Source of the DNA: Kibdelosporangium persicum
GTDB taxonomy: Bacteria > Actinomycetota > Actinomycetes > Mycobacteriales > Pseudonocardiaceae
Direction of reading: 5' to 3'
Length of the DNA: 64,000 nt
Assembly (NCBI RefSeq): GCF_013280595.1
Contig: NZ_JAAATY010000011.1
Coordinates: 1 to 64,000 of the forward strand
Below, in pieces: positions 45,381 through 59,803 of this stretch (positions are counted from its first letter, which is position 1; each line of letters begins with the position of its first letter). A model generated the notes under the pieces. It searched no databases and was not told the DNA's origin. It worked only from the letters and a program-made list of their open reading frames with translations. The position numbers and the translations under genes are program-made.

Positions 45381-46141
45381 CCCCACACCGTATTCAGCAG
45401 TCGTTCGAACGCCGCGTTGAACTCCGCCGGCCGTTCCAGGTTGGGCATGTGGGCCGCGCCCTCGATCACCGCGAGCGTCGATCCCGGGATCAGGGCGTGC
45501 ATGCGCTCCGCCTCGTGCACCGGGGTGTACTCGTCCAATCGCCCCACCACTATGAGCGTGGGCACCGAGATCTCTCGGAGCGATTCGGTGTAGTCGGGGC
45601 GTTCCGCGCGGCCCCGCAACGCCGCCGCGGCGCCTTCGGGCGGAGCGTTCTTCATCATGTGCATCACGTGCTCGGAGTCATTGCCCGGAGCCACCATCTT
45701 CCACTGCACCTCGTCGGCGTACGGCCCCATGCCTTCACGCAGCAATCGGTCGGCCATGTCGTTGCGCGCCTTCACACCTTCGGGCGTTTCCGCGCCGGGG
45801 AAGGTGTCCGCGAGCAGCAGACCGCTGATCCGGTCCGGGAACCGGCGGTAGGCTTCCATGACGATCTGGCCACCCATGGACAGTCCGCCGAGCACCACCC
45901 GGCCGGCGCCGAGCCGGTCCAGCAGGTCGGCGATGTCCTGGGCGAACACGTCGAGCGTGGTCTTACCCGGGATGACGGTGCTTTCCCCGTAACCACGCAG
46001 GTCGGGGACGATCATGCGGTGGCTCCGGCCGAACCTCTCGACCTGGGGCCGCCACATCGAACGGTCGAACGGGTGGCCGTGCACGAGCACAACCGGGTTG
46101 CCTGAGCCGACGTCGTCGTACGCGATGAACACGGGATTCAC
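45377..46141 (-). CDS. Alpha/beta hydrolase
   Basis: A 254-aa protein of the alpha/beta-hydrolase fold: oxyanion strand VVLVHGHPFDRSMWRP, nucleophile elbow GGLSMGGQIV (GxSxG), acid residue in VVGRLDEYTP and catalytic His in IEGAAHMPNLERP. It resembles ester, lactone or non-haem peroxidase-type members; the substrate is unknown. GTG 46141 (VNPVFIAYDDV) is the best start, although no good ribosome site precedes it. It is divergent from the MocR regulator across 62 bp containing a palindrome, so that regulator probably controls it together with the SDR. Confidence 0.88.
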   Translation of the reverse strand: MNPVFIAYDDVGSGNPVVLVHGHPFDRSMWRPQVERFGRSHRMIVPDLRGYGESTVIPGKTTLDVFAQDIADLLDRLGAGRVVLGGLSMGGQIVMEAYRRFPDRISGLLLADTFPGAETPEGVKARNDMADRLLREGMGPYADEVQWKMVAPGNDSEHVMHMMKNAPPEGAAAALRGRAERPDYTESLREISVPTLIVVGRLDEYTPVHEAERMHALIPGSTLAVIEGAAHMPNLERPAEFNAAFERLLNTVWG

Positions 46142-51438: not shown

Positions 51439-51906
51439 ATGACCACCCGGACACAGCGCAGCAGAACCAACCCCGACCTCGGGATGCTGGCCGGTCGCTT
51501 GCTGTTCGCCGTGCAGAACGAGCTGTTCACCGCCTTGGCGGCCAAGGGTTTCGACGACCTGCACCCGCGGCACGGCGCGGTGATGGCGTACCTGGAACCC
51601 AGCGGTGTGCGGGCCACCGACCTGGCCAGGCTGTCGGGCCAGCACAAGCAGGTGATCGGCACGCTCGTGGACGAACTGGAGCGGCTGGGCTACGTGCGGC
51701 GCCACCCCGATCCGGCCGACCGGCGCGCGAAGCTCGTGTGCCCGACCGAACGCGGCCTCGAGCAGATGCGCACCGCCGACAAGATCATGGCCGGGCTGCA
51801 GGACCGGCACGCGCGCAGGCTCGGCCGGGAAGCGTTCGCCCAGTTCAAGGCCGCCTTCATGGACGTGACCGAGCACCAGCGCAGGGTCGTCGCGAAGAAG
51901 TCATAA
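51439..51906 (+). CDS. MarR-family regulator
   Basis: A 155-aa winged-helix protein: LHPRHGAVMAYLEPSGVRAT, DLARLSGQHKQVIGTLVDEL, ERLGYVRRHPDPADRRAKLV (the wing) and PTERGLEQMRTADKI, the whole MarR pattern in order. The ATG at 51439 follows AGGGGCG; a GTG 24 nt upstream is an alternative start. It lies just downstream of the hybrid regulator, and its end overlaps the substrate-binding-protein gene on the other strand by 6 bp. Its target is not evident. Confidence 0.88.
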   Translation: MTTRTQRSRTNPDLGMLAGRLLFAVQNELFTALAAKGFDDLHPRHGAVMAYLEPSGVRATDLARLSGQHKQVIGTLVDELERLGYVRRHPDPADRRAKLVCPTERGLEQMRTADKIMAGLQDRHARRLGREAFAQFKAAFMDVTEHQRRVVAKKS

Positions 51907-52821
51907 GGCGGACAGCAGGCCGTCGTCGATGATCCCTGAGTTCAGCACGTCCCGTGACGACAGTGCGGTCGCGCTGGGGGAGTGGCGGGTGCGGAGCCGG
52001 ATGGCGGTCTCCAGGGCGTCCTGTGGCATGCGGCCGTCGGCGACAATGCCTTCCGCTGGGTCAAGCAATGTATCGAGGTAGCGCGAGGCAGCGGCTCGGT
52101 GCAATCCGAGGCGCCGCTGCGTGGCGCTGAGTGCGATCTCGGTGTGATTGCCCGCGAGCAGCTCGGTGCATGTCGTCCGGATTGCTCCGACCAATCCGGC
52201 GAGCATGTCGCGGTCCTGCTCGATCGTCTCGCCGCGCGCCGCCAGGACCGTTCCGACGTACGGCCCGATGGTCGTCACGCTGCTCAGCCGATGGGCGCCC
52301 GCCGCTTCGGCGCGGAGATCATTGCCGGCATTGAGGATCGTCATGTCGCACTGGCCTGAGAGCAATGCCTCGGTGCGCCGAGGGGTCGATCCCATGGATC
52401 GCACCGAGTAGTCGACGTCACGCAGTCCGAGGCGCTCGAGCAATTCGAACGCGATGAACGCGAACCCGGTCGTCGGAGCGTCCACGCCGAGCACGCCGCG
52501 GCGCAACTGGCCTGGTGCCGAGTGCCCGGGCCGGCCGAACAACGACAGTCCCAGCCCGCCGTCCACCGCGGCGAGTATCCGCACGTCGGCGGTTCGGCGC
52601 AGCGGGTTGCCCGGCAGACAGCGGTACGCCACCACGTTGTCGGGATTGGTCAACACCGCGTCCAGCTCACCGGCCAGCAGTGCGGCAAACTGGGCGGGCG
52701 ACGATGTGGCGGGGATCTCCTCAACGACGAGCCCGGCGGTGGCCAGTGCGCCCGTCTCAGCGGCGACCTCGACCAGCACCGACGGGCTGAACGTGCCCAC
52801 CTTGACGGTACGTGCGCGCAT
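51901..52821 (-). CDS. Substrate-binding-protein fold (NMT1/THI5-like), no signal peptide
   Basis: A 306-aa protein with the two-lobe periplasmic-binding fold: TVKVGTFSPSVLVEVAAETG, then LLAGELDAVLTNPDNVVAYR, GVLGVDAPTTGFAFIAFELL and the lobe-2 helices. It resembles NitT/TauT or NMT1/THI5 substrate-binding proteins, but begins directly with the first beta strand (MRARTVKVGTF) and has no lipoprotein or Sec signal, so it should stay in the cytoplasm. No ABC permease or ATPase gene is near. It is divergent from the beta-hydroxyacid dehydrogenase gene, and both share a control region with two CG-centred dyads. A sensor or enzyme role is as likely as transport. Confidence 0.8.
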   Translation of the reverse strand: MRARTVKVGTFSPSVLVEVAAETGALATAGLVVEEIPATSSPAQFAALLAGELDAVLTNPDNVVAYRCLPGNPLRRTADVRILAAVDGGLGLSLFGRPGHSAPGQLRRGVLGVDAPTTGFAFIAFELLERLGLRDVDYSVRSMGSTPRRTEALLSGQCDMTILNAGNDLRAEAAGAHRLSSVTTIGPYVGTVLAARGETIEQDRDMLAGLVGAIRTTCTELLAGNHTEIALSATQRRLGLHRAAASRYLDTLLDPAEGIVADGRMPQDALETAIRLRTRHSPSATALSSRDVLNSGIIDDGLLSAL

Positions 52822-52927
52822 GTCGCAATCGTTGGCAGCCAGCTGGTCTGAGTCAAGGACTTGACGGCCCTGATGGCGAGAGGCATCGTGAATGCGAACG
52901 ATTGCAAAGGCGAGGAGCGAGGTAGCG
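52822..52927. promoter_or_regulatory. Divergent control region with two LacI-type sites
   Basis: Site A CGCAATCGTTGGCA (52824-52837) and site B TGCGAACGATTGCA (52893-52906) both fit TGCAAWCGWTTGCA with a central CG, 69 bp apart. A third dyad GTCAAG-GA-CTTGAC lies between them at 52852-52865. Two matching sites occur upstream of the molybdenum hydroxylase genes at 58857 and 58914. LacI-family proteins usually bind such CG-centred dyads, and a lacI-type gene lies at 55331. Confidence 0.65.
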
Positions 52928-53869
52928 ATGACGGGCTTGCCGGCGGACAGTCCCCGGATCGGCTGGATCGGCTGCGGCCGGATGGGCGCGGCACTGGCCA
53001 AACGCCTGCTGCTCGCCGGGTACGACGTGACGGTCCACAACCGAACCCGGGCCAAGGCGGAAGCGCTGGCCGAGTTCGGTGCGACCGTGGCCGACCGGCC
53101 GGTCGACCTGGCCGACCGCGATGTGGTGTTCACGATGGTGGCCGCGTCGGTGGACCTGGAGGAGGTCACCGCGGGCACCGACGGTGTGCTGACCCATCCC
53201 GATGGGGCGCCCAAGGTCCTGATCGACTCGTCCACGGTCTCCGAGGAGTCGTCGGCCGGGGTGCGCGTCGCGGCGCTCAAGCGCAACACCGAGTTCCTGG
53301 CCGCGCCCGTGAGCGGCAACCCGAAGGTGGTCGACGCCGGCCGCGTCACCTTGGCGGTGTCCGGGCCACGCCCCGTTTTCGACCAGGTGGAGCCGGTCCT
53401 GACGGTGCTCGGCAGGGCCGTGACGTACGTCGGCGAGGACGAGGTCGCCCGGCTGGTCAAGATCGCGCACAACGTGTTCCTCGGCGTGGTGATCCAGTCG
53501 ATGGCCGAGATCACCGTGCTGGCCGAGAAAGGCGGCGTGAGCAGGGCGGCGTTCCTGGAGTTCCTCAACCAGTCGGTGCTGGGCTCGGCGTTCAGCCAGT
53601 ACAAGACGCCCGCGCTGGTCCACCTCGACTTCACCCCGACGTTCACCATGCCGCTGCTGCGCAAGGACTTCGACCTCGGCATGGCGGCCGCGCGGACGCT
53701 GGAGGCGCCGATGCCGCTGGCGTCGGCGGCCGCGCAGCTCGTGGCGTCCGCGGTCGGCGCCGGGTACGTCGACGAGGACTTCGCGGTGCTCATCCGGGAA
53801 CAGGCGCGCCGGGCCGGACTGGCGCTCGAACCGGAGGACGCCGACGTCACAGACGGTCTGGAGGAGTGA
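52928..53869 (+). CDS. Beta-hydroxyacid dehydrogenase (3-hydroxyisobutyrate dehydrogenase family)
   Basis: A 313-aa NAD(P)-dependent oxidoreductase. Seen: RIGWIGCGRMGAALAKRLL (GxGxxG), the substrate loop DSSTVSEESSAGV, FLAAPVSGNPKVVDAG and the catalytic-lysine helix LVKIAHNVFLGVVIQSMAEI, with the C-terminal helical domain (FTMPLLRKDFDLGMAAA). It interconverts a beta-hydroxy acid and the semialdehyde or keto acid. ATG 52928 follows a purine-rich site; a start 36 nt upstream would include the operator. The M24-fold gene follows after one base. Confidence 0.9.
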   Translation: MTGLPADSPRIGWIGCGRMGAALAKRLLLAGYDVTVHNRTRAKAEALAEFGATVADRPVDLADRDVVFTMVAASVDLEEVTAGTDGVLTHPDGAPKVLIDSSTVSEESSAGVRVAALKRNTEFLAAPVSGNPKVVDAGRVTLAVSGPRPVFDQVEPVLTVLGRAVTYVGEDEVARLVKIAHNVFLGVVIQSMAEITVLAEKGGVSRAAFLEFLNQSVLGSAFSQYKTPALVHLDFTPTFTMPLLRKDFDLGMAAARTLEAPMPLASAAAQLVASAVGAGYVDEDFAVLIREQARRAGLALEPEDADVTDGLEE

Positions 53870-53870
53870 G

Positions 53871-55115
53871 ATGCCCGATGACCGGCCCATCCCGGCGCCC
53901 GGGCACAGCGCCGTCGACTACGAGCAACGCGTCGACTTCGACCGATTGCGCGCCTATCGCCTCGAGCGCTCGAGGGCAGCGCTCGAAGCAAGCGAGTGCG
54001 GCGCGTTCCTGCTGTTCGACTTCTACAACATCCGCTACACCACGCAGACCTGGATCGGCGGCGCGCTCGGCGACAAGATGACGCGCTACGCGCTGCTCAC
54101 CCGTGGTGGCGAGCCGATGCTCTGGGACTTCGGGTCCGCGGCACGGCATCACAAGCTCTACGCGCCCTGGCTCGATCCGGAGAACTGCCACGCCGGAATG
54201 CTCGGACTGCGCGGAGCGATCGCACCGGGCGCCGGGCTGATGCGCTCCGCGGTCGCCGAGATCAAAGACCTGCTCGCGCAGGCCGGTGTCGCGGACGCGC
54301 CAGTCGGCGTGGACATCGTCGAACCGCCGTTCCTGTTCGAGATGCAGCGGCAAGGACTCACCGTCGTCGACGCGCAGCAGTCGATGCTCGACGCGCGGCA
54401 GATCAAGTCCGTCGACGAGATCACGCTGTTGTCCCAGGCAGCCGCCATGGTCGACGGCGTGTACCAGGACATCGTGGAAGCGCTGAAACCGGGCGTGCGC
54501 GAGAACGAGATCGTCGCGCTGGCCGGCAAACGGCTGTACGAAATGGGTTCCGACCAGGTCGAGGCGATCAACGCGGTATCGGGCGAGCGGTGCAACCCGC
54601 ATCCGCACAACTTCTCCGATCGCCTGATCCGCCCGGGGGACCAGGCGTTCTTCGACATCATCCAGTCGTACAACGGCTATCGGACCTGCTATTACCGGAC
54701 GTTCAGCGTGGGCAGCGCGACCGACCCGCAGCGCGACGCGTACCGCAGGGCCCGCGAATGGATGGACGCCGCGATCCAGCTGGTGAAGCCGGGAGTGGGC
54801 ACCGACGAGATCGCCCTGGTGTGGCCCGCCGCGACCGACTTCGGATTCGCCGGCGAGATGGCCGCGTTCGGCCTGCAGTTCGGTCACGGCCTCGGGCTCG
54901 GCCTGCACGAGCGGCCGATCATCTCGCGTCTCACCAGCCTGGCGCACCCGGTGGAGATCCAGGCGGGCATGGTCTTCGCGCTGGAGACGTACTGCCCGGC
55001 GTCCGACGGGTTCTCCGCGGCCCGCATCGAGGAAGAGGTCGTGGTGACCGGCCGCGGTGCCGAGGTGCTGACGAAGTTCCCGGCGCAGGACCTGTTCGTC
55101 GCCAACCCGTACTGA
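53871..55115 (+). CDS. M24 (pita-bread fold) peptidase-like protein with altered metal site
   Basis: A 414-aa protein of the Xaa-Pro aminopeptidase/creatinase fold: an N-terminal creatinase-like domain (residues 30-175) and a C-terminal M24 domain (185-405). Four metal-ligand positions are present: Asp262 (FFDIIQSYNGY), His339 (GHGLGLGLHERP), Glu372 (ALETYCP) and Glu387 (RIEEEVVV). The second Asp expected 11 residues after Asp262 is Cys273 (GYRTCYYRTF). A broken dinuclear site suggests a mononuclear-metal or metal-free hydrolase or lyase like creatinase, rather than a peptidase. It begins one base after the dehydrogenase stop and shares its promoter. The substrate is unknown. Confidence 0.85.
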   Translation: MPDDRPIPAPGHSAVDYEQRVDFDRLRAYRLERSRAALEASECGAFLLFDFYNIRYTTQTWIGGALGDKMTRYALLTRGGEPMLWDFGSAARHHKLYAPWLDPENCHAGMLGLRGAIAPGAGLMRSAVAEIKDLLAQAGVADAPVGVDIVEPPFLFEMQRQGLTVVDAQQSMLDARQIKSVDEITLLSQAAAMVDGVYQDIVEALKPGVRENEIVALAGKRLYEMGSDQVEAINAVSGERCNPHPHNFSDRLIRPGDQAFFDIIQSYNGYRTCYYRTFSVGSATDPQRDAYRRAREWMDAAIQLVKPGVGTDEIALVWPAATDFGFAGEMAAFGLQFGHGLGLGLHERPIISRLTSLAHPVEIQAGMVFALETYCPASDGFSAARIEEEVVVTGRGAEVLTKFPAQDLFVANPY

Positions 55116-55330
55116 AGGGTGGTCGCGTCCGGGAACGACTGCTGACGCACTGGACAAAGTGGACGCCCGGGTCGCCGGTGCCGGTGGCTGCGTTCGAGGG
55201 CGTGCGGACTCGGCCGGGGCGGGCACAACGGCCCGCTGGAGTACACGGAGTCGAAGGGCATTGCTGTGTCCTGGTGATTTTCCGGGTGATCGCACCAGGT
55301 AATGGTCCGGTTACCGCTAGGGTGGCCGCC
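55116..55330. promoter_or_regulatory. Promoter region of the LacI gene
   Basis: No gene lies in these 215 bp. An inverted pair GGTAA/TTACC with an 8-bp spacer lies at 55300-55317, about 14 nt before the start codon. It could overlap the promoter; nothing else is recognisable. Confidence 0.35.
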
Positions 55331-56323
55331 GTGGAAAAACCCCCGACGATCAAGGATGTCGCCAGCCTGGCCAAGGTGCACGCCGCCACCGCCAGCCGTG
55401 CGCTGAATCCCCAGACCAGGGGCAAGGTCAGCACCCGGACGGCCAACCGGGTGCTCGAGGCGGCGAAAACGCTGGGGTACGCGCCGAACTCGGCGGCGCG
55501 GATGCTGCGGACCAAGACGTCGTCGGTGGCCGGGGTGATCATCCCGGACCTCCGGAATCCTGTCTTTCCGCCGATCGTCCGAGGTATCGAGGACGGCCTG
55601 CACGAAGCCGGCTACATGGCCCTGCTGGGCAACACCGACGGCGACGAGGAGCGGGAACGCGAACTGCTGCTGGCGATGCGCGGCAGGCAGACCGACGGTT
55701 TCATCCTCGCGACCGGCCGCCGGACCGACCCCGCGCCAACCGTGCCCACGGTGCTGGTCAACCGTCGCAGTGACGCCGGTGACGTCCCCTCGGTGACCAA
55801 CGACAACAACGCCGGCATTTTCTCGGCCGTCGAGTTGCTCGCGTCGCTCGGCCACACACGCATCGGCCACGCCGCCGGACCACAGGGCCTGTCCACCGGC
55901 TGGGAGCGTTACCGGGCTTTTGTCGACGCGATGGACTCGCACGGCCTGGCCGTCGAACCCGGCCGGGTCACGTTCGCCACGGCGTTCACCGAGGAGGCCG
56001 GTTACCGTGCCGCGATGGCGTTGCAGGGCGACGTCACCGCGATCATCGCCGGAAACGACTTGATCGCACTGGGCTGCTACTCCGCCTTGGCCGAACGCGG
56101 TCTGTGTTGCCCGGATGACGTGTCCGTTGTCGGGTTCAACGACATGCCTTTCGCCGACCGGCAACGACCAGGCCTGACGACCGTGCGGATCCCGCACTAC
56201 GAAATGGGTCTGGAGGCCGCCCGGCTGCTGCTCGAACGGATCGCGAACCCGACGACCCCGGCCAAACGGGTGATCCTGCCGGTCGAACTGGTCCGCCGCG
56301 GCTCCGTCGCCCCACCCAGATGA
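55331..56323 (+). CDS. LacI-family transcriptional regulator
   Basis: A 330-aa regulator. Residues 6-60 form the LacI helix-turn-helix and hinge (TIKDVASLAKVHAATASRAL, then ANRVLEAAKTLGYAPNSAAR). The rest is the sugar-binding-type ligand domain (VAGVIIPDLRNPVFPPIVRG, then DVSVVGFNDMPFADRQRPGL). It probably regulates the flanking catabolic genes through the CG-centred sites at 52824, 52893, 58857 and 58914. The 215 bp before it contain GGTAA-N8-TTACC (55300-55317) but none of those sites. GTG 55331 places the helix-turn-helix at the usual distance; a GTG at 55322 is possible. Confidence 0.9.
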   Translation: MEKPPTIKDVASLAKVHAATASRALNPQTRGKVSTRTANRVLEAAKTLGYAPNSAARMLRTKTSSVAGVIIPDLRNPVFPPIVRGIEDGLHEAGYMALLGNTDGDEERERELLLAMRGRQTDGFILATGRRTDPAPTVPTVLVNRRSDAGDVPSVTNDNNAGIFSAVELLASLGHTRIGHAAGPQGLSTGWERYRAFVDAMDSHGLAVEPGRVTFATAFTEEAGYRAAMALQGDVTAIIAGNDLIALGCYSALAERGLCCPDDVSVVGFNDMPFADRQRPGLTTVRIPHYEMGLEAARLLLERIANPTTPAKRVILPVELVRRGSVAPPR

Positions 56324-58387
56324 TCAGCCGGGCATGGCGGCGATGATGTTCTCCGCGTTCAGCGGGAGCGTGCGGACGCGGACGCCGAGCGCGTCGGCCA
56401 GGGCGTTGCCGATCGCGGCCGCGGTGGGGCCCTGGGCGGCTTCACCCGCGCCGCGGCTGGGCAGGTCCGGACGGTTGACCAGGAGGACGTCGACGTCCGG
56501 CACTTCAGAGAACTTCAGGATCGGATAGCTTTCCCAGTCCGTGCTGGTCACGCGGGTCCGGGTGAAGCGGACCTCTTCTTTCAGTGTCCAGCTTGTGCTC
56601 TGGATCGCTCCGCCTTCGATCTGGTTGCGCAGACCGTCAGGGCTGACGACCAGGCCTGCGTCGACGGCCACGGTCAGCCGGGTGACCTGGAGTTCCTGCT
56701 CGGCGCGGACCTCGGCGACCACAGCGCAGTACGCGCCGTGATTGCTGTATCGGGCGAAACCGAAACCGCAGCCGCGATCCTGTTCCGGGACGCGGTCCCA
56801 CCAGCCTGCCCGGTCGGCGGCGGCGAGGATGACGGTTCGTGCGCGGTCGTCGGTGAGGTGGCGCAGGCGGAACTCGACTGGGTCCACATCCCCGGCCAGT
56901 TCGTCCATGAACGACTCTATGGCGAACACGTTCAGGTACGCCCCGAGTGCCCGCATCGCCGAGGTCCGCAAAGGCATGTGCAGCAGGCGGTTCTTGATGA
57001 TCTCGCGGCGCGGGAACGTGTACAGCGGGATGGCGTTGCGTTGTGCGCCGCCGCCGCGGGCGGTGGGGGGATCGTCGGACACGAACAGAGGCTTGGCGTC
57101 GGCCAGGTACGCGGCTGACAACAGGCCTGGTGCCGTGGGCGACATGCCCGGCCGGGCCAGGTGGCCGTTGCCGAAGGTCTCGTGGCGCCAACCGGTGATC
57201 GTTCCGTTCTCGACGCAGGCGGACATGCGCACGCCCATCGCCGGGCCGAAAGGTGCCCACGCCAACTCATCCGCGCGCGACCACACGACTTGCACGGCGT
57301 GCCCGGGGACGACTCGTGCCAGCAGAACTGCGTCGAAGGCGACGTCGTCGGCTCCGTTGTGGCCGTAGCATCCGGAGCCTTCGACGTGGTGCACGGTGAT
57401 CTGGTCCAGGGCGACCGGTAGGGCGATCGTGATGGCCTTGCGGAGGTTGTACGCGCCTTGTGTGTGGCTCCAGACCTCCAGTGCTGTGCCGCTCCACTGG
57501 GCGATCGCGCATGCCGGGCCGATGGAAGCGTGTGCCAGGTACGGTCGCGAGTAGTACGCGGTGGCGGTCGTGGGAAAGCCGGGCGAGACGGCGTCGACCG
57601 TCTGGGTTTCCACCGGCGTTGAGGTGAGCAACTCCGCGACTGACGACGGCAGTGACGCGGTCTCGTCCCACACCGCGTGCGAGCGCAGGAGTTCCGCGCC
57701 GGAGATCGCAGTTTCCTCTTGGGCTGCCACGACGCCCAGAAAACTGCCGTCGCGGACGACTTCGACGATTCCAGTGAGCGCCTTGGTGGCGGATGTGTCG
57801 AGCGAGCGGAGCGTCGCGCCGGGGGAGGGCGGGCGCACCACGCGGCCGTAAAGCATGCCCGGCAACGACATGTCGTGGATGAACCTCGCGCGGCCGTACA
57901 CCTTGTCCGGCAGGTCGATCCGGGGCGTGCTCGTTCCGACAACGGTGTGGTGCGACGGGGGTTTCGGGCGGGGCTCACCGGTCGCGTCGACGTCGAGGCT
58001 GACGGTTTCCGCCAGGTCCCAATAGCTTGTGGTGCCGGCGTCGGACATGATCAGGCCATCGTGGACGGTGGCGTGGGAGCCGAGGCCTGACGCGGCGATG
58101 AAGAGGGCGCGGACTTCGGCGGCCGCCTGCCGCAGGGCGGCTCCGGACTCCTCCAGGGAACGGCTGCCCGCGGTCAGGGTCTGCTCCGCCGTCACCGGCG
58201 CGGTCAGCGGGATCAGCTGGATCCGGTTGAAGCCGACGTCGAGTTCGTCGGCGACGATCTGGCCGAGCGCGGTCAGAATGCCTTGTCCCAGCTCGACTTT
58301 CCCGGATCGCACGGCCACTGTGCCGGACGCGTTGATGGTGATCCAACGGGACAGTCGTGGCGCGGCGGCGAGCGCGGGCGGGATCAT
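56324..58387 (-). CDS. Molybdopterin-binding subunit, nicotinate dehydrogenase/isoquinoline oxidoreductase type
   Basis: A 687-aa Mo-cofactor subunit of the xanthine oxidase family: SGKVELGQGILTALGQIVAD, VVGTSTPRIDLPDKVYGRAR, HHVEGSGCYGHNGADDVAFD, the Mo-site region MRALGAYLNVFAIESFMDEL and the catalytic Glu in RGAGEAAQGPTAAAIGNALA. Unlike the other pair in this window it has no Tat signal and is probably cytoplasmic. ATG 58387 overlaps the TGA of the [2Fe-2S] subunit gene (ATGA). Such enzymes hydroxylate N-heteroaromatics such as nicotinate or its analogues. It converges on the LacI gene with no gap. The substrate is unknown. Confidence 0.92.
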   Translation of the reverse strand: MIPPALAAAPRLSRWITINASGTVAVRSGKVELGQGILTALGQIVADELDVGFNRIQLIPLTAPVTAEQTLTAGSRSLEESGAALRQAAAEVRALFIAASGLGSHATVHDGLIMSDAGTTSYWDLAETVSLDVDATGEPRPKPPSHHTVVGTSTPRIDLPDKVYGRARFIHDMSLPGMLYGRVVRPPSPGATLRSLDTSATKALTGIVEVVRDGSFLGVVAAQEETAISGAELLRSHAVWDETASLPSSVAELLTSTPVETQTVDAVSPGFPTTATAYYSRPYLAHASIGPACAIAQWSGTALEVWSHTQGAYNLRKAITIALPVALDQITVHHVEGSGCYGHNGADDVAFDAVLLARVVPGHAVQVVWSRADELAWAPFGPAMGVRMSACVENGTITGWRHETFGNGHLARPGMSPTAPGLLSAAYLADAKPLFVSDDPPTARGGGAQRNAIPLYTFPRREIIKNRLLHMPLRTSAMRALGAYLNVFAIESFMDELAGDVDPVEFRLRHLTDDRARTVILAAADRAGWWDRVPEQDRGCGFGFARYSNHGAYCAVVAEVRAEQELQVTRLTVAVDAGLVVSPDGLRNQIEGGAIQSTSWTLKEEVRFTRTRVTSTDWESYPILKFSEVPDVDVLLVNRPDLPSRGAGEAAQGPTAAAIGNALADALGVRVRTLPLNAENIIAAMPG

Positions 58388-58845
58388 GACGACGCCTCGC
58401 CGGCTCGCATCACCGCGCGGACCATGCGGTTGTGTGCACCGCATCGGCACAGGTTGTTGTCCAACGCGCTGCGGACTTCACGTTCGTCGGGCTTGGGATT
58501 GCGTTCCAGCAGAGCGGTCGCGCTCATCACGATGCCCGAGACGCAGTAGCCGCATTGCGCTGCTTGCTCTTCGAGGAACATCCGTTGCACGGGACTGCCC
58601 GCGAGGCCTTCGACCGTGCGGATCGCCTGGCCCGCCACTGACCACAGTGGAGTGTCACAGGAGTACACCGTGCGGCCGTCGATGATCACGTTGCACGCAC
58701 CGCACAGGCCGACGCCGCATCCGAACCTTGTGCCCTTCAGGCCGAGGTGGTTGCGTAGCACGTAGAGCAAAGGGGTGTCCCGGTCGCACGTCACTTCGAC
58801 TTGGGTGCCGTTCACCGTCAGCTGGAACGTGTCGGTCATGCTCAT
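58384..58845 (-). CDS. Molybdenum hydroxylase [2Fe-2S] subunit (nicotinate dehydrogenase small-subunit type)
   Basis: A 153-aa subunit with both cluster motifs: CGVGLCGACNVIIDG plus the Cys in YSCDTPLW (residues 44-63) and QCGYCVSGIVMS / LCRCGAHNRMV (about 98-138). It relays electrons from the Mo subunit encoded directly after it with an ATGA overlap. The start may be residue 1 (MSMTDTF) or residue 3. Upstream lie two LacI-type operator-like sites, so the pair is probably induced by its substrate. No FAD subunit gene is present. Confidence 0.92.
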   Translation of the reverse strand: MSMTDTFQLTVNGTQVEVTCDRDTPLLYVLRNHLGLKGTRFGCGVGLCGACNVIIDGRTVYSCDTPLWSVAGQAIRTVEGLAGSPVQRMFLEEQAAQCGYCVSGIVMSATALLERNPKPDEREVRSALDNNLCRCGAHNRMVRAVMRAGEASS

Positions 58846-58927
58846 CCCGTCTGGAGCACTAACGATTGCACACTAGCCAGCCAGACAAAGTTGGTCAACG
58901 GTCCGACGTGTTGTGCAAACGATCTCA
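58846..58927. promoter_or_regulatory. Control region of the molybdenum hydroxylase genes with two LacI-type sites
   Basis: Site C CACTAACGATTGCA (58857-58870) and site D TGCAAACGATCTCA (58914-58927) match the half-site TGCAAWCG and the dyad TGCAAWCGWTTGCA, 57 bp apart; site D overlaps the end of the LysR gene. Shared sites with the 52824-52906 region suggest common control. Confidence 0.6.
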
Positions 58928-59803
58928 ACGCGAGTGTCCGATCAGGTCCAGCAAGGTGCGCAAGGCCCGGCTCGGCGGCCTGCTTGCCAGAGTCGCGATC
59001 GTCAACGGCCAGGTCATCCGTTCGGTGAGCGGCACACGGACCACGCCAGGCCCCACCTCGAACCCCAGGTCCGGGATCACCGCCACCCCCAGCCCGGCCT
59101 CCACGTAGGCGGGGACCGCGCTCAAGTCGGCCACCTCGACCCCGACGCGCCGCGGCGTGCCGAGCCCGACATAAGTGCGGTCGATCCAGACCCGGTTGCC
59201 GAAACCGGTCGAGGTGTCCACGAACGAATCGCGGGTCAGGTCAGGCAGCGACACCGAACTCGCGTCCGCCAGACGGTGGCCCGACGGCAGCAGTGCCACG
59301 TACGGCCAGCTGGCCAACGGTCGCGTGGCGAGTCCGGCCAGGTCGGCCTCGGGCAGTCCGAGCAGCGCGAGGTCCAGCCGGCCGGAGCGGACGTCGTCGG
59401 CCATGCCGGTCGAGCCGGTCACCGAGACCGTGACGTGGATGTCGACCAGCGGATAGCGCTCGTGGAACGCGCCGAGCAGGCCGGGCAGGTCGATCACCGA
59501 GATGTTGGTCATCGTGCCGATCCGGATGCTGCCGCGCAGCCCGGCCGAGGCCTCCTGCGCCACGGCCATCGCCCGGTCCACGGCCTCCAGCGCGGCCTTC
59601 GCCTCCGGCAGGAACGCGCTGCCCGCCGCGGACAGCGTCACGCGCCTGGTCGAGCGCTCGAACAAGGTTGTGCCGAGCTCCGCCTCCAGCGCCTTGACCG
59701 CCGCGGACACCGTGGACTGGACCGCGTAGAGCCGCTGGGCGGCACGCGTGAAGCTGAGCTCCTCGGCCACCGCCACGAAGTATTCGAGCTGGCGGGTCTC
59801 CAT
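58925..59803 (-). CDS. LysR-family transcriptional regulator
   Basis: A 292-aa regulator: N-terminal helix-turn-helix (METRQLEYFVAVAEELSFTR, then AQRLYAVQSTVSAAVKALEA) and C-terminal substrate-binding domain (GSIRIGTMTNISVIDLPGLL, then YVEAGLGVAVIPDLGFE). ATG 59803 starts the protein exactly at the conserved METRQLEYF. It is divergent from an MFS gene across about 80 bp that contain a T-N11-A-type dyad (CCAAGATTCTTCGTTGG, 59837-59853), so the transporter is its likely target. Upstream extension of the frame runs antisense to the transporter and is rejected. Confidence 0.92.
   Translation of the reverse strand: METRQLEYFVAVAEELSFTRAAQRLYAVQSTVSAAVKALEAELGTTLFERSTRRVTLSAAGSAFLPEAKAALEAVDRAMAVAQEASAGLRGSIRIGTMTNISVIDLPGLLGAFHERYPLVDIHVTVSVTGSTGMADDVRSGRLDLALLGLPEADLAGLATRPLASWPYVALLPSGHRLADASSVSLPDLTRDSFVDTSTGFGNRVWIDRTYVGLGTPRRVGVEVADLSAVPAYVEAGLGVAVIPDLGFEVGPGVVRVPLTERMTWPLTIATLASRPPSRALRTLLDLIGHSR

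Follow-up and report, generated by a model that had tools for sequence, protein, structure and literature searches.

A lacI-type gene of Kibdelosporangium persicum lies between two control regions that each contain a pair of CG-centred dyads, which raises the question of whether these four dyads are the operators of a LacI-family repressor and which genes and pathway such a repressor would govern. We addressed this question in a stretch of 64,000 nucleotides, denoted the window (contig NZ_JAAATY010000011.1, positions 1 to 64,000), in the 10.35-Mb genome to which it belongs, and in related genomes. The original prediction had proposed a LacI regulon that acts through paired, looped sites on the breakdown of an N-heterocyclic or similar compound. 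Judged from sequence comparisons, the dyads are very probably operators of a LacI-family repressor.

Genes and candidate operators of the window

The genes are arranged in the order MarR (+), SBP-like (-), dehydrogenase and M24 (+), LacI (+), molybdenum hydroxylase pair (-) and LysR (-), where SBP-like denotes a protein resembling substrate-binding proteins. The dyads, which are CG-centred even palindromes upstream of the putative target genes, are situated where three transcription units begin: the SBP-like gene, the dehydrogenase-M24 pair and the molybdenum hydroxylase pair. The features are as follows (scores and ranks refer to the congener matrix described below).

51901..52821 (-): P0001, THI5/NrtA-fold protein (SBP-like), no visible signal peptide
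52824..52837 (-): candidate operator 1, CGCAATCGTTGGCA, 2 bp upstream of the SBP-like start codon, score 14.8, rank 4
52861..52889 (+): inferred dehydrogenase promoter, TTGACG - 17 bp - CATCGT, read by eye
52893..52906 (+): candidate operator 2, TGCGAACGATTGCA, 3 bp downstream of the inferred dehydrogenase -10, score 23.4, rank 1
52928..53869 (+): P0002, beta-hydroxyacid dehydrogenase family enzyme
53871..55115 (+): P0003, M24-fold enzyme, Cys273 at the place of a canonical Asp ligand
55204..55277 (+): remnant of an aldehyde dehydrogenase (ALDH) 3'-end
55331..56323 (+): P0004, LacI-family regulator, helix VHAATASRALN, no tetramerisation tail
56324..58390 (-): P0005, molybdopterin subunit of molybdenum hydroxylase
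58384..58845 (-): P0006, [2Fe-2S] subunit of molybdenum hydroxylase
58857..58870 (-): candidate operator 3, CACTAACGATTGCA, 11 bp upstream of the [2Fe-2S] gene, score 15.6, rank 3
58870..58898 (-): inferred [2Fe-2S] gene promoter, TTGACC - 17 bp - TAGTGT, read by eye
58914..58927 (-): candidate operator 4, TGCAAACGATCTCA, upstream of the inferred -35 and overlapping the LysR stop codon, score 22.1, rank 2
58925..59803 (-): LysR-family regulator, the upstream neighbour (P0007 from its Met160)

P0004 combines a LacI helix-turn-helix with a sugar-binding-type core (PF00356, 49.3 bits against a cut-off of 27; PF13377, 124.8 bits against 26.5). The molybdenum hydroxylase is of the xanthine dehydrogenase type, with PF00111, PF01799, PF20256 and PF02738 above cut-off; no NCBIfam cut-off was reached by this enzyme. 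P0001 had been described as a substrate-binding protein. By eye we found neither a signal peptide nor a lipobox, and the first strand of the fold begins at residue 4. In the alignment, 10 of 37 rows have a stop 2-15 codons upstream of the aligned start, while the others leave more room. The structure matches of P0001 are one aligner's view of Foldseek's top 1000, by which no family is excluded.

Canonical M24 metallopeptidases use five metal ligands, D, D, H, E and E. P0003 has the predicted M24 fold and departs from this set at one position: with ligand positions placed by alignment with 1pv9, the second Asp is replaced by Cys in all of the best 80 of at least 583 relatives (77-93% identity), and the other four positions are kept in all 80. 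The ALDH remnant was recognized from a blastn alignment (E 3e-30) that covers 145 columns at 78% and extends into the LacI start. Three congeners (G001, G003 and G005) carry an ALDH gene between M24 and lacI, and the best remaining ALDH homologues of the own genome, 61% and 58% identical, are on other contigs.

The placement of the dyads suggests how they might act. Operator 1 includes the inferred -10 of the SBP-like gene (AACGAT, - strand), and operator 3 has one base in common with the inferred -10 of its own promoter. TTGACG is present in 8/8 and TTGACC in 5/5 aligned genomes; a consensus promoter scanner reported no promoter in either control region. A LacI dimer would bind each operator and block RNA polymerase; we infer this from operators 1, 2 and 3, each of which overlaps an inferred -10 or comes directly after it, where classical repressors have their operators. 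Operator 4, upstream of the -35, may be auxiliary. An inducer derived from the catabolised compound would release the repressor. The main binder would be the linked protein P0004, and a paralogue encoded at C3:371238 may share the sites. One dimer per operator, released by inducer, appears to be the simplest reading.

Conservation of the dyads

All four dyads were found where they had been predicted (52824, 52893, 58857 and 58914), and the distances within the pairs were again 69 and 57 bp. The window contains six matches to the proposed consensus with up to three mismatches as against a mean of 3.62 in dinucleotide shuffles, and 19 of 100 shuffles reach six. Taken alone, this single-genome statistic is not convincing and the dyads are weak by it; we therefore tested their conservation.

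Eleven control regions of congeners, seven upstream of the dehydrogenase and four upstream of the [2Fe-2S] gene, were searched for the core with one TTGC half. Each of the 11 contains exactly two sites, 22 in total. Their spacing is 69 bp in 7/7 congeners on the dehydrogenase side and 57, 59, 57 and 57 bp in the four on the [2Fe-2S] side. Operator 1 has a counterpart in 7/7 congeners, operator 2 in 7/7 and additionally in three genomes of another genus, operator 3, as TGCTAACGATTGCA, in 4/4 examined congeners that keep the [2Fe-2S] gene, and operator 4 in 4/4. In each region 24 of 28 site columns are invariant (eight genomes for the dehydrogenase and five for the [2Fe-2S] region), compared with 35/114 and 29/87 non-site columns, respectively, short coding ends included. 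A LacI orthologue of 80-91% identity accompanies the operators in 7/7 congeners.

A scoring matrix was built from the 22 sites of the seven congeners, with no site from the own genome. Applied to the window, it placed the four dyads at ranks 1-4; the next match scored 12.3, at 46141. The statement that no other copy exists is correct for the window and fails for the genome, where the strict form TGCRAWCGWTYGCA occurs at two places, 52893 (operator 2) and C3:375777. Operators 1 and 3 are degenerate in this genome, with scores lower than that of any of the 22 congener sites (range 18.0-23.7).

Some congeners lack parts of the cluster. In G006 (L034) and G004 (L035) the SBP-like, M24 and molybdenum genes are absent at the locus, and lacI, dehydrogenase and both divergent operators are retained. 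A remnant piece of the SBP-like gene is still legible in the alignment of these two genomes; the gene itself was not found in either whole genome at E 1e-30. In G002 (L036:10825-11629) the M24 gene matches in two pieces only, its middle gone, and the operators are intact.

To examine other genera, genome contigs were scanned with the M24 protein, and the best 80 of at least 583 confirmed relatives were kept as loci; exclusion of the four from training genomes (L090-L092 and L106) left 76 of the 80, all of other genera. In this sample from the best 80 of at least 583 relatives, 51/76 distant loci contain a total of 118 matches of score >=17. For 100 column-permuted matrices on the same loci the median was one match; the two highest gave 124 and 23, the former being a swap of two similar columns. 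The proposed consensus TGCAAWCGWTTGCA occurs with zero mismatches in several distant loci, for example L105, L112, L128 and L141.

The matches lie upstream of particular genes. Among genes with 350 bp of upstream sequence available in loci from the best 80 of at least 583 relatives, a site precedes 27/67 dehydrogenase (median distance 26 bp), 20/33 SBP-like (28 bp), 20/30 LivK (47 bp), 13/48 lacI and 5/6 ALDH2 genes. In the same sample the counts are 3/22 for hydrolase, 2/13 for FeS, 2/49 for PDH-E1, 3/77 for M24 and 1/9 for amidohydrolase genes, and zero for ALDH (0/49), MoL (0/12), FAD monooxygenase (0/1) and a second M24 type (0/1); the last 360 bp of the same genes, taken as control stretches, contained no site. 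A chance resemblance of four AT-rich words, to which the small excess of matches over shuffles in the window would lend itself, is rendered negligible by the conservation across species and the independent recovery in other genera.

The association with LacI in the distant loci is modest. Of the 76 from the best 80 of at least 583 relatives, many of which end at contig ends or at 10 kb, 34 have both LacI and motif, 10 LacI only, 17 the motif only and 15 neither. Besides this modest association, the degenerate operators 1 and 3 and the negative promoter scan, it speaks against a LacI regulon that 40/67 dehydrogenase genes in this sample (best 80 of at least 583) have no site at score >=17, and that G144 holds an M24 cluster with sites, but has its nearest LacI relative elsewhere in the genome.

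The probable regulator and its mode of binding

The proposed LacI regulon stands in its core, one motif of the LacI class being common to both control regions, adjacent to lacI, and conserved in congeners and distant Actinomycetota; its extent was drawn too narrowly, with sites of the same class also outside the window. The recognition helices of 39 LacI loci were compared with the nearby dyads. All eight loci with the helix VHVTTASRALN carry TGCAATCGTTTTC[CT] 37-48 bp upstream of their own lacI; they are orthologous to each other and therefore represent few independent events. A dyad with the core GCAATCGATTG is found at 3/3 loci with VHPGTASRALN, TGTAAACGTTTTC takes the place of the motif at 8/8 loci with VSVATVSRALS, and nothing similar occurs with VSRALVSLVMN (0/3) or VSTTAVSKVLR (0/1). 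The motif thus varies with the helix, which is what binding by LacI proteins would predict.

The helix of P0004 itself, VHAATASRALN, was represented by 16 loci, eight of them in this genus, and none has a site directly upstream of lacI; several have a site of score >=22 elsewhere within the same 4 kb. According to the text of a survey of LacI-family regulons, 72% of LacI-type regulators are autoregulated (PMC4052901), so that the lack of such a site counts against the proposed regulon. Autoregulation through a site upstream of lacI was rejected here, such a site being absent in 8/8 genomes of the genus. In G001, G003 and G005 the dehydrogenase, M24 and ALDH genes precede lacI, which may therefore be controlled from operator 2.

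The sites might belong mainly to the second LacI (C3:371238, 54% identical), or be common to both paralogues, the linked protein then not being the sole regulator. Sites of this class precede both the gene of the paralogue and Liv-type transporter genes, and the helices of the two LacI proteins are of the form VHxxTASRALN. Against this, the linked LacI is kept beside the sites in 7/7 congeners, including G004 and G006 with their reduced loci, and one half of the autoregulatory site of the second LacI, TGCAATCGTTTTCC, is unlike the sites of the window; we consider such a role of the paralogue unlikely, though it is the alternative to be taken most seriously. Control by the neighbouring LysR or MarR regulator is very improbable. 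Both genes adjoin the sites, the LysR stop codon even overlaps operator 4, and both remain there in G004 and G006. Among the best 80 M24 loci of at least 583, however, MarR matches are confined to three same-genus loci and absent from all 76 distant ones, and LysR has three weak matches (30-37%) in the distant loci, of which 51/76 carry the motif. Moreover, CG-centred even dyads are a hallmark of LacI proteins, seen for 1173 of 1303 regulators in the text of PMC4052901.

P0004, our preferred regulator, has 330 residues and matched NCBIfam PRK09526, which we take to be the E. coli LacI model, only up to position 333 of 358. No C-terminal tetramerisation tail was found in seven aligned LacI proteins. 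The looping suggested in the original prediction is not supported, because the LacI protein is without such a tail. Paired action through DNA looping by a LacI tetramer would agree with two sites per region at conserved spacing and with an outer operator 4 upstream of the inferred -35. We nevertheless regard it as improbable: the tail is missing in 7/7 proteins, the pair in the divergent region is explained as one operator per promoter, and the intersite distances given in the text of PMC4052901 peak at 13, 22 and 32 bp as against 57 or 69 bp here. The two sites of a region may serve divergent promoters, one each, or may combine a promoter operator with an upstream auxiliary one.

Extent of the proposed regulon and its pathway

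With up to two mismatches the pattern matches 195 places in the own genome as against 59 for the pattern read backwards, and this loose form was discarded as an uninformative test of genome-wide uniqueness. The strict match at C3:375777 lies at a locus with the second LacI and a branched-chain-amino-acid-type ABC transporter, identified through its 84%, Pfam-tested counterpart in G002; further sites are at 371192 and 377058. Ten related genomes contain the strict motif at 32 places in nine of them, with none in G006, and the pattern read backwards at none. Of these 32 matches, 23 could be placed at LacI, M24, Liv or amidohydrolase loci: 19 in annotated stretches (one within the SBP-like coding sequence, L054:9998), one by an exact match to an M24-locus site (L106), and three by their distance of ~3.3 kb from the LacI-2 gene, like the Liv site of the own genome. 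Two strict matches are not linked to this LacI: one, in G001, precedes an MFS transporter accompanied by a TRZ/ATZ-type amidohydrolase, and the other, in G005, precedes an amidohydrolase of the TRZ/ATZ type.

A third LacI type, with the helix VHPGTASRALN (L017, L018 and L066), has a closely related operator upstream of itself, and in G001 it lies ~12 kb from the MFS-amidohydrolase unit. Two further strict matches are located upstream of cytidylate kinase, each a perfect TGCAAACGTTTGCA, in two congeners (L174:6195 and L177:5878); the word also occurs in a third (G005:C37:55926) and, with one mismatch, at C39:53749 of the own genome. This site is possibly a target of another LacI-type regulator.

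The amidohydrolase of G144 has 71% homologues in G001 and G005 by tblastn, and no match in the own genome at E 1e-60, in a search without positive control. For the PDH-E1-like gene seen in the clusters of relatives, the own genome has a 70% homologue at C5:211775, and the 16 kb around it contain no site of score >=15. The genes would form part of an ancient catabolic regulon of actinobacteria whose substrate is not a sugar, perhaps a nitrogen heterocycle, and which extends to unlinked loci.

Searches of Pfam, NCBIfam, PDB and the literature found no matching pathway, and full-text literature searches that combined LacI with molybdenum hydroxylase and similar terms yielded no fitting report. 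Nicotine catabolism of the pAO1 type in Paenarthrobacter uses a molybdenum hydroxylase, a 2,6-dihydroxypseudooxynicotine hydrolase and an ALDH of the succinate-semialdehyde dehydrogenase type; M24, dehydrogenase and THI5-fold proteins are, to our knowledge, not part of it. Some relatives of the cluster likewise encode a molybdenum hydroxylase and a succinate-semialdehyde-dehydrogenase-like ALDH, together with a hydrolase whose closest PDB match is 2,6-dihydroxypseudooxynicotine hydrolase (2jbw, E 6e-41). In some, an amidohydrolase or the homologue of the nicotine-pathway hydrolase is under the motif, and these neighbours would fit an N-heterocyclic substrate. No gene of this hydrolase type was seen among the genes around the dyads in the window.

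The local regulons of the LacI family (RegPrecise) described in the text of PMC4052901 likewise have an even palindrome with central CG and sites near operon starts, often with the regulator beside its targets, as here. They are mostly carbohydrate regulons (176/182 groups with an assigned pathway); the present targets instead comprise a dehydrogenase, an M24-fold enzyme and a molybdenum hydroxylase. As its text presents it, the survey contains few LacI regulators that govern anything other than sugar pathways, and the words xanthine, aromatic and Mycobacteri are absent from its main text; the type of regulon is known, and the targets found here are not among the pathways named there. We give about even weight to a broader reading, in which Actinomycetota would have, across the phylum, a LacI regulon (helix VHxxTASRALN, operator TGCAAWCGWTTGCA) that is not devoted to sugars and controls an undescribed catabolic pathway. 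This pathway would be centred on a Cys-variant M24 enzyme, a molybdenum hydroxylase and a cytosolic THI5-fold protein, and duplicated LacI proteins would have retained the operator where loci are split. The operator, regulator class and gene list obtained here concern a catabolic pathway that occurs in many soil actinobacteria, so that its substrate can be sought via the compound that releases LacI.

P0003 has its fold family in common with the ectoine hydrolase DoeA and the DMSP lyase DddP, the latter being its best NCBIfam match. Its scores with these models, 100 (cut-off 600) and 58 (cut-off 613), place P0003 in a separate subfamily; Cys stands at one ligand position in 80/80 relatives (best 80 of at least 583), and this conserved Cys points to unexplored chemistry. 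The M24 protein is the most conserved one of the cluster in L031-L033. In L090, a record titled Rhodococcus rhodnii NRRL B-16535 and probably a mislabelled Kibdelosporangium, it is 93% identical to that of the window.
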